Shown: positions 3,497 through 52,348 of the stretch, in pieces
How the letters are laid out: each line of letters opens with the position of its first letter
How positions within the stretch are numbered: the stretch's first letter is position 1
Assembly: GCF_023821985.2 (NCBI RefSeq)
Contig: NZ_CP098805.1
Coordinates: forward strand, 3,348,001-3,412,000
Length of the DNA: 64,000 nucleotides
Direction: 5' to 3'
Source: Dyadobacter chenhuakuii
GTDB taxonomy: Bacteria; Bacteroidota; Bacteroidia; Cytophagales; Spirosomataceae
Notes under the pieces: generated by a model
What the model was told of the DNA's origin: nothing
What the model saw: the letters and a program-made list of their open reading frames with translations, nothing else
Databases searched by the model: none
Made by a program: the position numbers and the translations under genes

Positions 3497-4846
3497 ATGC
3501 TTGATAGTTTGAAAATCAAAGAAACCTCGCGTAATGTAACACCCGGTGAAGGTGGAAGACTTGCTTCTTTATCGGAGGTGCATTCATCCATAACAGTTCC
3601 GGAAGGCGCGGGATTTTGGCGGAAACTAATGGCCTTTACTGGCCCCGGACTCATGGTCGCCGTGGGTTATATCGATCCGGGAAACTGGGCAACGGACATT
3701 GAAGGCGGTTCGCGGTTTGGCTACACATTGTTATCTGTAATCCTGATTTCCAACCTTTTTGCGATGCTTTTGCAGCATCTTTCGCTCAAATTAGGGATTG
3801 CATCTGGACGCGACCTGGCACAAGCCTGCCGCGATTACTATTCCAGGCCGGTTTCATTTGTGCTCTGGATACTTTCTGAAATTGCCATTGCCGCCACTGA
3901 CCTTGCCGAAGTCATCGGTTCAGCCATTGCACTAAACCTGCTTTTTGGGCTTCCATTGCCCGTAGGCGTGGTTTTTACGGCGCTGGATGTGCTGCTGGTT
4001 CTTTATTTTCAACAAAAAGGCTTTCGGATTATTGAGAGTATCGTCGCTGGTTTAATGGGCATTATCCTCCTGAGCTTTATCTATGAAATGATCTTATCCC
4101 AGCCTTCTATCGCCGGAATCGTCGATGGTTTGATCCCAAGAACACAAATCGTGACCGACTCGGGAATGCTGTACATTGCGATCGGGATTTTGGGCGCTAC
4201 TGTGATGCCGCATAACCTTTACTTGCATTCCAGCATTGTCCAGACCAGGGCGTATAACAGGAATGACGAAGGCAAAAAATCAGCCATACGCTTCGCAACC
4301 ATCGATTCCACGGTTTCCCTGGCGCTTGCATTCTTCATTAATGCCTCCATCCTGATCCTCGCCGCAACCGCTTTTCACGCAAACGGACACTTTGAAATTG
4401 CAGACATTACGGACGCCTATCACCTGCTGGATCCGGTTTTGGGCGTAGGCCTGGCTGGTATATTTTTCGCGCTGGCATTACTTGCTTCCGGGCAAAGTTC
4501 TACATTAACAGGCACATTGGCCGGGCAGATCGTGATGGAGGGTTTTTTAAATATCCGTCTTAAACCCTGGCTGCGCAGGCTCATAACCCGGGGCATTGCC
4601 ATCATTCCGGCACTGATCGTTTCATCATTATATGGCGAGAAAGGAACGGCGGACCTGCTCGTTTTCAGTCAGGTGATTTTGTCGTTGCAACTGAGCTTTG
4701 CTGTGGTGCCGCTGGTGTTCTTCACGTCCAACAGCAACATCATGGGACGCTTCGCCAATTCGCGATTTCTGACCGTTCTGGCCTGCGTAATCACCCTGAT
4801 TATTATTAGTTTGAACCTCTTTTTGCTTTGGAAAACCTTCTTTTGA
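3497..4846 (+). CDS. mntH: Nramp-family Mn(II)/metal:H+ symporter MntH
   Basis: A 449-residue inner-membrane protein with about eleven helices. Both Nramp metal-site signatures are present: DPGNW in the first helix and MPHNLYLHS in the sixth, which supply the Asp, Asn and Met ligands that select manganese and iron. Length is slightly above the bacterial average because of a polar N-terminal extension of about 45 residues before the first helix. It imports divalent metal using the proton gradient. It diverges from the DtxR-family regulator, and the 139-base gap carries a TAnnTTTG promoter and two TTTAG palindromes, so metal-dependent repression is the obvious control. A 7-bp inverted repeat follows the stop codon. 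Confidence 0.95.
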   Translation: MLDSLKIKETSRNVTPGEGGRLASLSEVHSSITVPEGAGFWRKLMAFTGPGLMVAVGYIDPGNWATDIEGGSRFGYTLLSVILISNLFAMLLQHLSLKLGIASGRDLAQACRDYYSRPVSFVLWILSEIAIAATDLAEVIGSAIALNLLFGLPLPVGVVFTALDVLLVLYFQQKGFRIIESIVAGLMGIILLSFIYEMILSQPSIAGIVDGLIPRTQIVTDSGMLYIAIGILGATVMPHNLYLHSSIVQTRAYNRNDEGKKSAIRFATIDSTVSLALAFFINASILILAATAFHANGHFEIADITDAYHLLDPVLGVGLAGIFFALALLASGQSSTLTGTLAGQIVMEGFLNIRLKPWLRRLITRGIAIIPALIVSSLYGEKGTADLLVFSQVILSLQLSFAVVPLVFFTSNSNIMGRFANSRFLTVLACVITLIIISLNLFLLWKTFF

Positions 4847-4849
4847 ACC

Positions 4850-4870
4850 TTAAACTTTAACTTAGTTTAA
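4850..4870. repeat. Short inverted repeat after mntH
   Basis: TTAAACT and AGTTTAA form a perfect 7-bp repeat with a 7-base gap, just after the mntH stop. It is AT-rich with no T-run, so it may be a weak terminator or a relative of the TTTAG operators upstream. Confidence 0.3.
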
Positions 4871-5029
4871 CAAAGTCTCCCCTGCGCCCGGCCACAACTT
4901 GCCGCCCAAAACACATTTCTTCCCGCATACGTTCGGAAAGAACTGTCTGATTGAAAATTAATTTTATCCATGTAAGAACCTTTTTGCATGCGGTTTCCTA
5001 ACTTTCGCCGTTTTTTCGACCTAAAGTGA

Positions 5030-6976
5030 ATGGAATCAAAGCATAAATTGAACAAGATTACGGCAGCCGGTGTACTGGTTGCATTCGGGATTATTTATGG
5101 CGATATAGGCACTTCGCCCCTGTACGTAATGCAGGCGATCATCCTGAATGAAGTCATTACCGAAGAAATCATTTATGGCGCCATTTCCTGTATTTTCTGG
5201 ACACTTACTTTACAGACAACCGTCAAATATGTAATCCTTATCCTGCGAGCTGATAATAAGGGAGAAGGCGGGATTTTCGCCCTCTATGCGCTTGTTCGCA
5301 AGCACGCCAAATGGCTCACGGTCCCTGCCGTGATCGGCGGCAGTACACTGCTTGCAGACGGGATCATTACCCCACCCATTTCCGTATCATCTGCCGTTGA
5401 AGGTTTGCAGCTTATTTATCCCAACATTCAGACTATACCCATCGTAATCAGTATCCTAACGCTGATTTTTGTCATTCAGGCATTTGGAACAAAGGTTGTG
5501 GGGCGTGCTTTTGGCCCTATTATGGTCACCTGGTTTGTGATGCTGGGCGTGCTTGGTCTCCACCAGATCATGGAACATCCGGAAATCTTAAAAGCGCTAA
5601 ATCCTGTCTACGGCTACGACCTGATCACCAAACATCCAGGCGGTTTTTGGATCCTGGGAGCTGTTTTTCTTTGTACAACAGGAGCCGAAGCATTGTATTC
5701 GGATCTCGGACATTGCGGCCGGGAGAACATCCGGGTTAGCTGGATTTTTGTAAAAATATGCTTGTTACTCAATTATTTCGGCCAGGGAGCATGGCTTCTT
5801 ACCGAAATGGGCAATCTTTTGGAAGCACGCAAGCCATTCTATGAAATCATGCCCGAATGGTGGTTGCTGCCCGGCGTTGTGATAGCAACATTGGCAGCGA
5901 TTATCGCCAGCCAGGCTGTTATAACCGGCTCATTTACCTTAATCTCTGAAGCAATACGCCTGAATTTCTGGCCAAAAGTGCGCTTAATTTATCCAAGCGA
6001 TCAGAAAGGACAACTCTACGTGCCAAGTATCAACTGGCTGCTTTGGCTGGGCTGCTGCGGTGTAGTTTTATATTTTGGAAAATCATCCAATATGGAGGCT
6101 GCGTATGGTCTGGCCATTACGCTGACGATGATCATGACGACCATTCTCTTCTCTTATTATCTGTATATCAAACGGGTAAATCTCTGGATCGTGATCGCCT
6201 TCATGCTTTTCTATTTATTTATCGAAGGCATGTTCCTGGGCGCTAACCTGCTGAAATTCACGCACGGAGGGTGGTTTACGATTCTCGTCGGAACAGTGGT
6301 TGCTGGTTTGATGACGATCTGGCTTAAAGCCTTCTACATTAAGCTGCGTTTGACGGAATACACGAAACTGGAAAAATATTTACCGGCCCTGCACGAGCTC
6401 AGCCGCGACATCAGTATCCCCAAATACACGACGCACCTGGTGTTCATGACCAATGCTTCCCGGGCTACGGAGATCGAGACAAAAGTGATTTATTCCATAT
6501 TCCAAAAACGGCCGAAACGTGCTGACGTTTACTGGTTTATCCACGTTGACATTACAGATGATCCGTACACAATGGAATACAAGGTGTTGTCCGACGACGA
6601 TAACAATGATAATGTAATCAAGATCAATTTCCGTCTGGGCTTCCGGGTGGATCAGCGGATCAATATGTTCTTCAGGAAAGTGGTGGAAGATATGGTAATG
6701 AACAAGGAAGTGGACATTACCAGCCGATACGAATCCCTTAGCAGACAGAACATTACGGGTGATTTCCGTTTTGTTGTGCTGGAAAGGTTCCTGTCATTTG
6801 AAAACGACCTGCCGCTGTTTGAACAGCTCGTGATGAAGACTTATTTCTTTGTTAAAGACTTCACCACGTCTGAGGACAAGTGGTTTGGACTGGACAGCAG
6901 CTCGGTGAAAATCGAGAAAGTGCCTTTGATCATCAGGCCGGTTGAAAATGTGAAGCTGCGGCGCGTTTTTAACTGA
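5030..6976 (+). CDS. kup: Kup-family potassium uptake permease
   Basis: A 648-residue protein that begins with the family hallmark GIIYGDIGTSPLYV in the first helix, followed by eleven further predicted helices to about residue 440 and a soluble C-terminal domain of roughly 200 residues. Kup/HAK/KUP proteins import potassium, probably with protons. Length and layout are complete. The stop codon ends at 6976, and the stop of the convergent phosphoribosyltransferase gene begins at the very next base, so the two transcripts meet with no spacer and no visible terminator. Confidence 0.95.
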   Translation: MESKHKLNKITAAGVLVAFGIIYGDIGTSPLYVMQAIILNEVITEEIIYGAISCIFWTLTLQTTVKYVILILRADNKGEGGIFALYALVRKHAKWLTVPAVIGGSTLLADGIITPPISVSSAVEGLQLIYPNIQTIPIVISILTLIFVIQAFGTKVVGRAFGPIMVTWFVMLGVLGLHQIMEHPEILKALNPVYGYDLITKHPGGFWILGAVFLCTTGAEALYSDLGHCGRENIRVSWIFVKICLLLNYFGQGAWLLTEMGNLLEARKPFYEIMPEWWLLPGVVIATLAAIIASQAVITGSFTLISEAIRLNFWPKVRLIYPSDQKGQLYVPSINWLLWLGCCGVVLYFGKSSNMEAAYGLAITLTMIMTTILFSYYLYIKRVNLWIVIAFMLFYLFIEGMFLGANLLKFTHGGWFTILVGTVVAGLMTIWLKAFYIKLRLTEYTKLEKYLPALHELSRDISIPKYTTHLVFMTNASRATEIETKVIYSIFQKRPKRADVYWFIHVDITDDPYTMEYKVLSDDDNNDNVIKINFRLGFRVDQRINMFFRKVVEDMVMNKEVDITSRYESLSRQNITGDFRFVVLERFLSFENDLPLFEQLVMKTYFFVKDFTTSEDKWFGLDSSSVKIEKVPLIIRPVENVKLRRVFN

Positions 6977-7495
6977 TCATTTCAGATAAACACCTTCTTC
7001 CTCCGCACGGCTTAAAACCACTTCCACGTGCTCAGTAAGCGTGGTACTCAGCGCATAACCCACGTAGTCTGCGTGGATAGGGAATTTGTGATGGCTCCTG
7101 TCCACGACAACGGCAACCTGCACTTTTTTCATACTCACTTTCAGGAAGGGTTCCAAAGCAAAAGCCAATGTCCGTCCGGTGTTCAGCACGTCGTCGGCAA
7201 TAACAATGACCTGATTTTCGATCTGAACATCCTTGTCAAAAACCACAGGGCTCTGAAAATGAATGTGTTTGTCAAAACGCAGCTCAACGAGCTCGACATG
7301 CAGCGGGGAAATGTCCGTGAGCTCGGCAACGAGCCTTTTTGCAAAAGCATAACCTTCCCCGGCTATTCCGGCGATGATAATGCTCGTTTCTTCAAAATTA
7401 TGCTCATATATTTCAAACGCGATCCTGCGGATCTTCTGGCTCGTTTGAAGCGGACTTAATATCTGGCGTTTCTTTGAAATTGTACTGTTGGTCAT
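6977..7495 (-). CDS. PyrR-like phosphoribosyltransferase family protein
   Basis: A 172-residue type I phosphoribosyltransferase. The PRPP-binding loop is VIVIADDVLNTGRTL at about residues 98-112, and the downstream VVVDRSHHKFPIHADYVG resembles PyrR, the pyrimidine regulator/uracil phosphoribosyltransferase. Whether it has enzymatic, regulatory or another base-specific role cannot be decided here. It is 30 bases downstream of the glutamine amidotransferase gene on the same strand, so it may be the last cistron of that run, although a PRTase has no obvious place in the gamma-glutamyl pathway proposed for its neighbours. Confidence 0.8.
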   Translation of the reverse strand: MTNSTISKKRQILSPLQTSQKIRRIAFEIYEHNFEETSIIIAGIAGEGYAFAKRLVAELTDISPLHVELVELRFDKHIHFQSPVVFDKDVQIENQVIVIADDVLNTGRTLAFALEPFLKVSMKKVQVAVVVDRSHHKFPIHADYVGYALSTTLTEHVEVVLSRAEEEGVYLK

Positions 7496-7525
7496 TGGGT
7501 GAGCTTAATGCTTGTTGGGATAAAA

Positions 7526-8230
7526 TTAAGAAGAGAAGTTCTTTATCCAATGCGCAAACATGATTTCCTGCGTCGGCAATTCCAGACTGGCGATGCCCAG
7601 TTCAACCTTTTTTTCGCCAATGCGCTCTACCCGGAGCTCCATTAATGCCTGGTCATATTTTTTAGAAAACTCGGGATGCGCTTGTATCCCCAACATGCGC
7701 TCACCCACGCGGAACATGGCATGCGGGCAGTCGGGCGTTTCGGCCAGTAATGTAGCATCAGGCGGTAATTGCACCACCTGATCCTGGCACATCATCAGCA
7801 AATTGAATGCATCTGTAAACGGCTGCATCCAGATTTCCCGGGCGATCAGCTGTAAACGATGCACGCCCACACACCAGCCAACCAATGATTTTTCCACTTT
7901 CCCGCCTAATGCCTCTCCCAACATCTGATGCCCGAAACAGACACCAATAAATGTTTTTTGGGACTGATAAATGTCCACCACGAAGTTTTTTAACCGGGTA
8001 ATCCAATCTTCCTGATCATAAACCGAACTTTTGGAACCGGTGCAAATGTAGATGTCACATTCCTCAACGGACACAGGAAAGTGACCATTGCAGACATCAT
8101 AGAAATGAAATTCCCACTCCGGTGCCACATTTGAAAACAGGGCCGGAAACATGTCCCGGTAATCGCGCGCTATGTGCCGCAGCTCTTCCCGCACGTGATC
8201 GCATTCGAGTAAGCCAACTTTCACCGCCAT
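7526..8230 (-). CDS. Class I glutamine amidotransferase-like hydrolase
   Basis: A 234-residue, stand-alone triad-type GATase. The nucleophile elbow is GVCFGHQMLGEALGG, and the His-Glu pair is in IQAHPEFS at about residues 180-190, so the catalytic triad is complete. There is no synthetase domain attached. Stand-alone members can hydrolyse gamma-glutamyl bonds. Its start codon overlaps the aldehyde dehydrogenase stop by one base (TAATG), which implies translational coupling, and the gene set here includes a glutamine-synthetase-like ligase. A role in releasing glutamate from a gamma-glutamyl product, like PuuD in the putrescine pathway, is inferred from context and not from a diagnostic motif; PuuD itself is not especially similar by eye. 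Confidence 0.8.
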   Translation of the reverse strand: MAVKVGLLECDHVREELRHIARDYRDMFPALFSNVAPEWEFHFYDVCNGHFPVSVEECDIYICTGSKSSVYDQEDWITRLKNFVVDIYQSQKTFIGVCFGHQMLGEALGGKVEKSLVGWCVGVHRLQLIAREIWMQPFTDAFNLLMMCQDQVVQLPPDATLLAETPDCPHAMFRVGERMLGIQAHPEFSKKYDQALMELRVERIGEKKVELGIASLELPTQEIMFAHWIKNFSS

Positions 8231-50111: not shown

Positions 50112-50179
50112 ATGCCCTCCCATTCTGAATAATTGCAGGCATATCAGGGCAAAATCGCATTGTATCGTCATTAAGTTAT

Positions 50180-50187
50180 TACTTTTG
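50180..50187 (+). promoter_or_regulatory. Bacteroidota-type -7 element for the glucuronokinase-like gene
   Basis: TACTTTTG matches TAnnTTTG. It lies 20 bases before the TTG chosen as start, so the leader is very short and the start cannot lie much further upstream. Confidence 0.5.
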
Positions 50188-50206: not shown

Positions 50207-51202
50207 TTGATAATTGAAACTCGTGCATATGCCCGCGCCGGGCTGCTAGGCAATCCTTCTGATGGTTTTTTTGGGAAAACGATATCCATTTCTGTCAGAA
50301 ATTTTGGCGCTTCCATTTCACTGTATGAATCCCCTGAACTCCATATTGAATCGGAGCCGCAGGATGAGAGCACATTTCGCAGCATTTTTCACTTGCGCGA
50401 CACGGTTAGCATGCTGGGTTACAATGGTGGGATTCCGCTGATTAAAGCGGGGATCAAGAAATTCGGGGATTACTGCGAAGACAACGGCATCCGGCTTCCT
50501 AACCGGAATTTCACTGTTCGTTACCGGTCTTCCATTCCGCGTCAGGTTGGCATGTCAGGTTCAAGCGCAATCGTGGTTGCATTGTTCCGCGCGCTGATGC
50601 AGTTTTACAAGGTTGAAATTCCGAAGGAAATCCTTCCGCAGCTCGTCATGGTGACCGAAACCGAAGAACTCGGCATTACAGCCGGGTTACAGGACCGCGT
50701 GATCCAATGTTATGAAGGCTGTGTTTATATGGATTTTGACAAAGAACTCATCGACCGTCAAGGTTATGGACTTTACGAACGGATAGATCCAGCTTTGCTT
50801 CCCAAATTATATGTAGCTTATAACACCAACCTCAGCAAAGTTTCCGGCAAGGTGCACAGCGATGTCAGGACACGTTTTGACCGCGGAGAGACCGACGTAA
50901 TTGATGTCCTGGGACAGATTGCGAAAAAAGCAGCGGATGGTCGCGAAGCCCTCATCGAGGGTCGTGCGCACGATCTCCATCAGTTAATGAATGAGAATTT
51001 TGATTTGCGCTGCAAAATTTACAATGTGCCCGAGTCCAACAAAAGGCTGATCAATGCAGCCCGTTCCTGCGGCGCATCTGCGAAATTCGCGGGATCCGGC
51101 GGAACGATCATCGGCATTTATCATGATGACGATATGCTGAACCAGCTTTTTGTAGAGCTTAAAAAGCATAATGCGCGGGTGATTAAGCCGTTCGTGGTTT
51201 AG
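50207..51202 (+). CDS. GHMP-family sugar kinase, glucuronokinase-like
   Basis: A 331-residue GHMP kinase. The first strand IIETRAYARAGLLGNPSDG holds the substrate motif, SIPRQVGMSGSSAIVVALFRAL is the ATP-binding loop, and KFAGSGGTIIGI is motif 3. The segments LGITAGLQDRVIQCYEG and VHSDVRTRFDRGE resemble plant glucuronokinase, which makes glucuronic acid 1-phosphate. The first codon is TTG, chosen because it directly precedes the conserved strand and follows a promoter at 50180-50187. galU comes next, 112 bases downstream, so sugar-1-phosphate made here could feed a UDP-sugar. The sugar itself is uncertain. Confidence 0.8.
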   Translation: MIIETRAYARAGLLGNPSDGFFGKTISISVRNFGASISLYESPELHIESEPQDESTFRSIFHLRDTVSMLGYNGGIPLIKAGIKKFGDYCEDNGIRLPNRNFTVRYRSSIPRQVGMSGSSAIVVALFRALMQFYKVEIPKEILPQLVMVTETEELGITAGLQDRVIQCYEGCVYMDFDKELIDRQGYGLYERIDPALLPKLYVAYNTNLSKVSGKVHSDVRTRFDRGETDVIDVLGQIAKKAADGREALIEGRAHDLHQLMNENFDLRCKIYNVPESNKRLINAARSCGASAKFAGSGGTIIGIYHDDDMLNQLFVELKKHNARVIKPFVV

Positions 51203-51314
51203 GCCACCGGTGATCCGCCGTTACCTTCAAAAGACTTCATTAAAAAAGATATATTTACCAATTAACACCAAAGATGCCGAAGGCTGAATGCTAACGGCCG
51301 AAAGCCAACATCAT

Positions 51315-52178
51315 ATGATTCGTAAAGCTGTAATTCCTGCTGCCGGACTTGGAACCCGTTTTCTACCTGCAACCAAATCGATGCCTAAAGAAATGCTTCC
51401 TATTATCGACATTCCTACGATCCAGTATGTGGTTCAGGAGGCGGTTGATTCCGGCATTGAGGACATTCTGATTATTTCAGGAAAAGGAAAACGAGCCATC
51501 GAAGACCATTTCGACCGGAATGTTGAACTTGAAAGCCGTTTGGAAGAGAAGGAAGACTTGATGTGGTTCAATGAAATGCGCCGCCTGGCCGACATGGCCA
51601 ATGTGCATTTTGTAAGACAAAAAGAAGCCAACGGATTAGGGGACGCAATTTACTATGCACGTCACCACGTTGGTAATGAGCCGTTTGCTGTACTTCTGGG
51701 CGATACAATCATGGATTCTGTAATCCCGGTTACCCAACAGTTAATGGACACTTACGAGCAGTTTGGCGGCTCAGTCATCGCGGTGGAAGAAGTTGATCCC
51801 AAGAAAGTAAACCGCTACGGAATTGTAGGCGGAACATCATTAAGCGACACCATCATGGAATTGAGCGCGCTGGTCGAAAAGCCAGCCATCGAAGTCGCAC
51901 CATCCAACCTCGCCATTGCAGGCCGCTACATTCTGACTCCGGAAATTTTCAATACAATCGAGCAAACACCAAAGGGCAAAAACAACGAAATCCAGCTAAC
52001 TGATTCATTGTTACTCCTTCTCAAACGCGAAAACATCTACGCGCACCGCATAGAAGGCAAACGCCACGACATAGGAGATAAACTGGATTACCTGAAAACA
52101 ACGGTTGAGTTTGCATTGAAAAGGAAAGAATTCGCCGAACCGTTCAGGCAGTTTTTGATTGATATCTTGAATAAGTAG
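51315..52178 (+). CDS. galU: UTP-glucose-1-phosphate uridylyltransferase
   Basis: A 287-residue nucleotidyltransferase. The UTP-binding motif is AVIPAAGLGTRFLPATKSMPKEMLPI, followed by VQEAVDSGIEDILIISGKGKRAIEDHFD and the product region VLLGDTIMD with IAGRYILTPEIF. It makes UDP-glucose; some relatives accept other sugar 1-phosphates. The ATG at 51315 gives IRKAVIPAAG directly, so it is preferred over 51288. It follows the glucuronokinase-like gene and is followed by a long GC-rich inverted repeat, which may serve as its terminator. Confidence 0.95.
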   Translation: MIRKAVIPAAGLGTRFLPATKSMPKEMLPIIDIPTIQYVVQEAVDSGIEDILIISGKGKRAIEDHFDRNVELESRLEEKEDLMWFNEMRRLADMANVHFVRQKEANGLGDAIYYARHHVGNEPFAVLLGDTIMDSVIPVTQQLMDTYEQFGGSVIAVEEVDPKKVNRYGIVGGTSLSDTIMELSALVEKPAIEVAPSNLAIAGRYILTPEIFNTIEQTPKGKNNEIQLTDSLLLLLKRENIYAHRIEGKRHDIGDKLDYLKTTVEFALKRKEFAEPFRQFLIDILNK

Positions 52179-52195
52179 GGAGTTGCTTTTTTCTA

Positions 52196-52273
52196 GCCCT
52201 GTCAGCCTGAGCGGAGCCGAAGGCGCGTTACCCAGGAGTAGCGCGCCTTCGGCTCCGCTCAGGCTGACAGGGC
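52196..52273. repeat. Long perfect inverted repeat after galU
   Basis: Arms at 52196-52227 and 52242-52273 are perfect reverse complements of 32 bases over a 14-base loop. The arms contain CTGAGCGGAGCCGAAGG. The element resembles repeats common in Bacteroidota intergenic regions and could form a very stable hairpin. Confidence 0.85.
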
Positions 52274-52335
52274 CTTCGACCGCCCGCGGCCCGGTCCGCT
52301 TAGGCTGACAGGGCCTTTCGACCGCCCGGCGACCT
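52274..52335. repeat. Degraded copy of the same GC-rich repeat
   Basis: Starting with CCTTCGACCGCCCG, the segment repeats pieces of the arm (CCGCTTAGGCTGACAGGGCC) and a second CTTTCGACCGCCCGG, in the orientation of the right arm. Confidence 0.6.
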
Positions 52336-52348
52336 GACAAGCCAGTGA

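Follow-up and report, generated by a model that had tools for sequence, protein, structure and literature searches.

The window, a 64,000-nucleotide stretch of a Dyadobacter genome (6.08 Mb in two contigs), carries two neighbouring genes on its plus strand: a glucuronokinase-like GHMP kinase (50207-51202, 331 aa, TTG start), seen in the ORF list and in comparisons with Pfam, NCBIfam, relatives and an AlphaFold model, and a GalU-family uridylyltransferase (51315-52178). The original prediction of such a kinase adjoining galU holds, in that both ORFs are present, each with its expected Pfam domains, and the second passes its NCBIfam cut-off. A TTG start for the kinase fits the alignment, in which relatives begin at the same place. 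The mechanical ORF of galU runs from 51288 to 52178 (296 aa); by comparison with most relatives, the more likely start is 51315 (MIRKAV) rather than 51288. A possible promoter, given low weight, lies at 50160-50187 (+), one of three plus-strand matches in the window to TTG-N17-TAnnTTTG, taken here to be the Bacteroidota promoter consensus. Just 3' of galU, at 52195-52345, inspection by eye finds repetitive sequence with inverted copies (cctgtcagcctgagcggagccgaaggcgcg...), perhaps an intergenic repeat element or a terminator. Among the ORFs examined by eye around the pair, which span about 42.9-58.9 kb, ATP synthase subunits and a YceI-like gene lie upstream and unrelated genes downstream, and none is a uronate gene.

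The kinase contains the Pfam domains GHMP_kinases_N (45.1 bits) and GHMP_kinases_C (33.4 bits), both over cut-off, and reaches the cut-off of none of the 12 NCBIfam models among the matches listed. Mevalonate kinase scores 51.9 bits (cut-off 163), the HddA heptose kinase model NF049969 51.1 (equivalog cut-off 600), galactokinase 21.7 with NF003006 (443) and 13.9 with TIGR00131 (226.65), and fucokinase 20.1 (721); being so far under these cut-offs, the heptose kinase, galactokinase, fucokinase and mevalonate kinase labels were dropped, and on its sequence the kinase is best regarded as a distinct bacterial family. Among solved structures the best sequence match is a Bacteroides heptose kinase (HddA, 3k85, E 2e-11), and none of the matches up to E 1 is named glucuronokinase. 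The predicted AlphaFold model (pLDDT 88.9) places the protein among the GHMP kinases. Its top five structural matches (Z 30.9-31.1, rmsd 2.4-2.7 over 297-307 residues) are a tie between the heptokinase WcbL (4usm), galactokinases and a Listeria protein, so the fold gives no substrate. HddA and WcbL, the nearest solved relatives by sequence and by fold respectively, have the GHMP fold in common with the window kinase but are 18-20% identical to it in structural alignment.

Arabidopsis glucuronokinase (GLCAK, EC 2.7.1.43), an enzyme of the plant myo-inositol oxygenase (MIOX) pathway, is probably a closer match: the window kinase is 44% identical to it over 306 aa (E 3e-81) and other bacterial family members up to 48%, against E 0.05 at best for the other GHMP kinases of the host, with the qualification that the plant sequence compared is a provisional copy that may not be independent of the bacterial alignment, which makes the similarity a lead, not proof. 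This provisional sequence keeps 41 of the 46 residues that are invariant across 43 bacterial rows; GNPSD (residues 15-19) and GLQDRV (160-165) are invariant in the 43 aligned bacterial kinases and are kept in the plant letters. GLQDRV and VHSxVRxR had both been put forward as motifs shared with the plant enzyme. GLQDRV is indeed family-wide, whereas VHSxVRxR, which occurs in the window kinase as VHSDVRTR, does not serve as a family marker because many relatives carry, for example, VLNDIR instead. The plant enzyme takes no firm place in the kinase tree, where its end branch is 2.58.

Relatives of the kinase were collected in one GTDB genome scan, which gave 88 stretches, from which 80 loci were kept (37 from Dyadobacter and 43 others). 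Dyadobacter alkalitolerans has a kinase that matches the one in the window at 99% identity. The 43 other loci are mostly from Bacteroidota, the rest being single or few MAGs each from KSB1, Neomarinimicrobiota, Calditrichota, Fibrobacterota, Spirochaetota, Deferribacterota, Ignavibacteriota, Verrucomicrobiota, Planctomycetota, Hydrogenedentota and a Thalassovita; since all non-Bacteroidota records are MAGs, binning errors are possible in some phylum labels. Within Bacteroidota the kinase is rare, with 11 positives among 198 genomes (class draw) and 11 among 395 (phylum draw), the host genome being the sole positive common to the two draws.

The GalU ORF matches Pfam NTP_transferase and TIGR01099 galU, an equivalog model, at 371.9 bits (cut-off 326.8). 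If a galU counts as adjacent when it shares the strand of the kinase and lies no more than 400 bases away, galU is adjacent in 37/37 Dyadobacter loci (gaps of 85-222 bases), in 26 of the 43 other loci of the GTDB scan and in 18 of 20 kinase loci from genome searches, a recurrence beyond chance. Three of the 17 misses among the 43 have only 402 bases or fewer of downstream sequence; the other 14 comprise seven Runella loci, one Cytophagaceae MAG, one Prevotellaceae MAG, one Verrucomicrobiota, one Planctomycetota and three Hydrogenedentota, one of these last having 23 bases upstream. The two misses of the 20 are a locus at a contig end (G003) and a genome with its GalU on another contig (G364). 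In one family, f79, galU precedes the kinase, touching or overlapping it.

The two genes also keep company at the level of whole genomes, which is the sharper comparison. In the 395-genome phylum draw, GalU (E 1e-30) occurs in 11/11 kinase-bearing genomes against 1/384 others (Fisher 1.5e-20, kinship between genomes ignored), and in a hand-picked set of 34 genomes that overlaps this draw it occurs in 16/16 against 0/18. The GalU query detects PDB chains 2e3d (1.8e-63) and 2pa4 (1.1e-50), so distant GalUs should not escape the search. The sole kinase-free genome with GalU, G170, encodes a 650-aa fusion of a GHMP kinase and a GalU domain (L175:2497-4446, minus strand), of which the kinase part is galactokinase-type (GEHTD) and the GalU part has Thr at the position of YngB Asp134, giving a single-chain sugar kinase/uridylyltransferase. 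A UDPGP-type enzyme (PF01704) is found in one of the 34 hand-picked genomes. GalU itself is nearly absent from those Bacteroidota of the phylum draw that do not carry the kinase.

The GalU UDP-glucose pyrophosphorylases YngB, PaUGP and KpUGP belong to the same family as the enzymes found here, which keep their named substrate and metal residues, with the exceptions given below. In PMC7961091, Asp134, Val204, Gly172 and Glu191 of YngB are predicted glucose contacts and Asp133 a predicted metal contact; PMC11796359 describes the equivalent Asp131 of PaUGP as helping to hold glucose, its Ala mutant being almost inactive, and KpUGP as having Val at this position and being tolerant of change at it. 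Of 73 distinct GalUs from kinase-bearing genomes (32 labelled Dyadobacter), 60 have Thr and 13 have Ser at the YngB Asp134 position; the residue in the Dyadobacter enzyme is Thr140 (codon at 51705). The control for this position is small, with Asp in YngB, three Burkholderia chains and PaUGP, and Val in KpUGP. Apart from one truncated row and the Val204 position, where Ile, Val or Phe occurs, the 73 keep the other named residues. A further departure from YngB is at His113, replaced by Asp in 64/73 and kept as His in 9/73. A sugar site that has lost this negative charge would be suited to a substrate with a C6 carboxylate. The predicted GalU model (pLDDT 76.2, below 50 in residues 11-31) is too poor for a reading of the pocket. 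In PMC12203929, six recombinant UGPases are reported to be specific for Glc-1-P, with less than 10% activity on GlcA-1-P for the two quoted.

Uronate enzymes flank the kinase in 7/43 non-Dyadobacter loci, and TRAP genes alone in two more, the flanks compared being of unequal length. The seven are two Mucilaginibacter MAGs (UxaE), a KSB1 MAG (Eda, KdgK-like, KduI, TRAP), a Neomarinimicrobiota MAG (KduI, UxaC), a Calditrichia MAG of Calditrichota (UxaC, UxaE-like, TRAP), a Chitinispirillaceae MAG of Fibrobacterota (UxaC, TRAP) and a Saprospiraceae MAG of Bacteroidota (UxaB, UxaA-like, TRAP). Among representatives, NCBIfam cut-offs are exceeded by UxaC of L085 (541 bits against 387), KduI of L071 (398 against 250), tagaturonate reductase of L093 (639 against 359), TRAP DctM (439 against 268) and the flank Eda, the KdgK-like and UxaA-like proteins falling under theirs; Pfam backs UxaE, UxaC, KduI, DctP and DctM. 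No uronate gene is present in the flanks of the 37 Dyadobacter loci.

In one Bacteroidota genus the kinase and galU also cluster with the gene for MIOX, which puts the plant route from inositol to UDP-GlcA into a bacterial gene cluster. In G120 the three genes are consecutive: galU starts directly behind the stop codon of the kinase, and 33 bases separate its own stop from MIOX. In G087 an opposite-strand MFS transporter, labelled hexuronate by eye and of the D-galactonate type (under cut-off) by NCBIfam, separates galU from MIOX. In G046 MIOX is on the opposite strand, some 2.4 kb away from galU, and in G181 two contigs break off inside galU, one after the kinase and the other beside MIOX. 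MIOX exceeds its cut-off in 9/11 kinase-bearing genomes of the class draw against 8/187 others (one of the eight marginal), and in 3/11 against 25/384 in the phylum draw (p 0.036). As the positives belong to few families, the p-values are too favourable; families f6 and f48 show a clear linkage and the others a weak one. Two regions with MIOX genes and no adjacent kinase, L187 (G421) 3670-8131 and L124 (G152) 3-1238, have them beside sodium/solute symporters, which suggests inositol uptake. For Dyadobacter, MIOX was rejected as a supplier of glucuronate, since the host genome has no PF05153 match; of the 10 other kinase-bearing genomes in the class draw, 9 have MIOX.

Bacterial UDP-GlcA is commonly attributed to UDP-glucose dehydrogenase, and the salvage of glucuronic acid by a kinase had been proposed as an alternative to that route. 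An alternative it may well be, although probably not the sole route, because the host also has a Ugd-like gene (TuaD of NCBIfam, 518 bits, under its cut-off of 700, with the cut-off of the nucleotide sugar dehydrogenase subfamily passed). With this gene present, UDP-GlcA can probably be made de novo as well, and the kinase/GalU route would supplement the customary one rather than replace it. The Ugd-like gene is followed by a short-chain dehydrogenase that reaches no model cut-off and is taken for UDP-xylose synthase; a TviB-like dehydrogenase is also encoded. Away from the pair, a uronate-catabolic cluster contains tagaturonate reductase, Eda, UxaC and UxuA, all over cut-off, and a KdgK-like protein under it, from which free glucuronate is expected in the cell. 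PF00483 finds four host proteins, including GalU and a 299-aa NTP transferase; the other two are presumably RmlA and ManC. The 299-aa enzyme (L211:5429-6325 (+), C1 about 5210429-5211325) adjoins a homoserine-kinase-like gene, and has no NCBIfam match at 1e-15. Two kinase-free relatives have counterparts at 66% and 50% identity; it is a possible general sugar nucleotidyltransferase of Bacteroidota.

A glucuronokinase might stand beside a GalU that is nothing but the UDP-glucose pyrophosphorylase of the cell, with GlcA-1-P used by another enzyme. The TIGR01099 score fits this, as do the host genome, in which no other GalU and no UDPGP-type enzyme is found, and the Ugd-like gene, which needs UDP-glucose; moreover, activity of KpUGP with Val (PMC11796359) implies that the Asp position varies in true UDP-glucose enzymes. 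A housekeeping role, however, predicts GalU in kinase-free relatives, where it is confined to the one kinase/GalU fusion, and leaves aside the Thr/Ser found at the glucose-contacting Asp in all 73 GalUs; the 299-aa nucleotidyltransferase common to two kinase-free relatives could itself serve UDP-glucose. An exclusively UDP-glucose-forming GalU is accordingly judged unlikely, though the Dyadobacter enzyme may make UDP-glucose as well.

The kinase, for its part, could act on another sugar. UxaC, UxaE, UxaB and TRAP neighbours would fit galacturonate and glucuronate alike, and the pair would then be a galacturonokinase and a UDP-GalA pyrophosphorylase; but glucuronate is the product of MIOX, whose gene joins that of the kinase in a cluster in one genus, and the plant galacturonate kinase is described in PMC3938481 as very diverse in sequence from plant glucuronokinase, which leaves this reading very unlikely. 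A non-uronic substrate (heptose 7-phosphate, galactose, fucose or arabinose) has in its favour the sequence match to 3k85 and the tie of WcbL and galactokinases in fold, at Z about 31, yet HddA, galactokinase and fucokinase scores fall far short of their cut-offs and the uronate and MIOX neighbourhoods are left without explanation. It is most improbable.

It is probable that the kinase is a bacterial glucuronokinase and GalU its partner uridylyltransferase, the two together converting free glucuronate to UDP-GlcA. The kinase would form alpha-D-glucuronate 1-phosphate from ATP and D-glucuronate, and GalU would use UTP and GlcA-1-P to give UDP-GlcA and PPi, so that the pair may recharge free glucuronate for whatever use the cell makes of the product. 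The glucuronate would come from myo-inositol via MIOX in some relatives and from imported uronates in others; in Dyadobacter it would be drawn from a pool also used by the uronate-catabolic pathway. Uronate neighbours, the MIOX cluster and the co-occurrence with GalU all point to a uronic acid substrate, and with the 44% identity to the provisional plant sequence they support the salvage originally proposed. Counting against it are the kinases of Runella and of some Verrucomicrobiota, Planctomycetota and Hydrogenedentota without an adjacent galU, a GalU over the cut-off of a glucose-specific equivalog, the low share of MIOX in the phylum draw (3/11), the Dyadobacter flanks devoid of uronate genes, and a host that has a Ugd-like gene and lacks MIOX.

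Salvage of glucuronic acid to UDP-GlcA by a kinase has to date been described mainly in plants and some animals. The Dyadobacter arrangement differs from the plant route, which has MIOX and, according to PMC3938481, a broad UDP-sugar pyrophosphorylase as partner in place of a GalU-family enzyme. From its description in the same paper, zebrafish DrGKUP resembles the pair in the two activities proposed, a glucuronokinase and a bacterial-type nucleotidyltransferase, but is a single fusion with the transferase first, and its pyrophosphorylase activity is reported as extremely low; family f79 has the order of DrGKUP in separate genes. The GalUs described here are also tied to a kinase by genome content, unlike YngB, PaUGP and KpUGP. 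Among the matches listed in a literature search of titles and abstract openings, outside which most subscription journals lie, there is no characterised bacterial glucuronokinase and no bacterial MIOX-kinase-GalU cluster. PMC8571626 gives glucuronokinase among the predicted functions of algal bacteria, so that annotation of bacterial glucuronokinases already exists, which limits novelty.

More tentatively, and with some doubt, several phyla may have a complete glucuronate salvage route made up of a glucuronokinase and a dedicated, GalU-derived UDP-GlcA pyrophosphorylase marked by the change from Asp to Thr/Ser, in some cases with a MIOX cluster that would be the bacterial counterpart, and perhaps the origin, of the plant and animal inositol route. 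The MIOX cluster puts this bacterial inositol route within direct experimental reach. If the salvage reading is true, the tie between GalU and the kinase in Bacteroidota would be accounted for, the labels of a set of GalUs would be corrected, compact enzymes would be on offer for the production of UDP-GlcA, and bacteria could re-use the uronic acids freed from plant and algal polymers.
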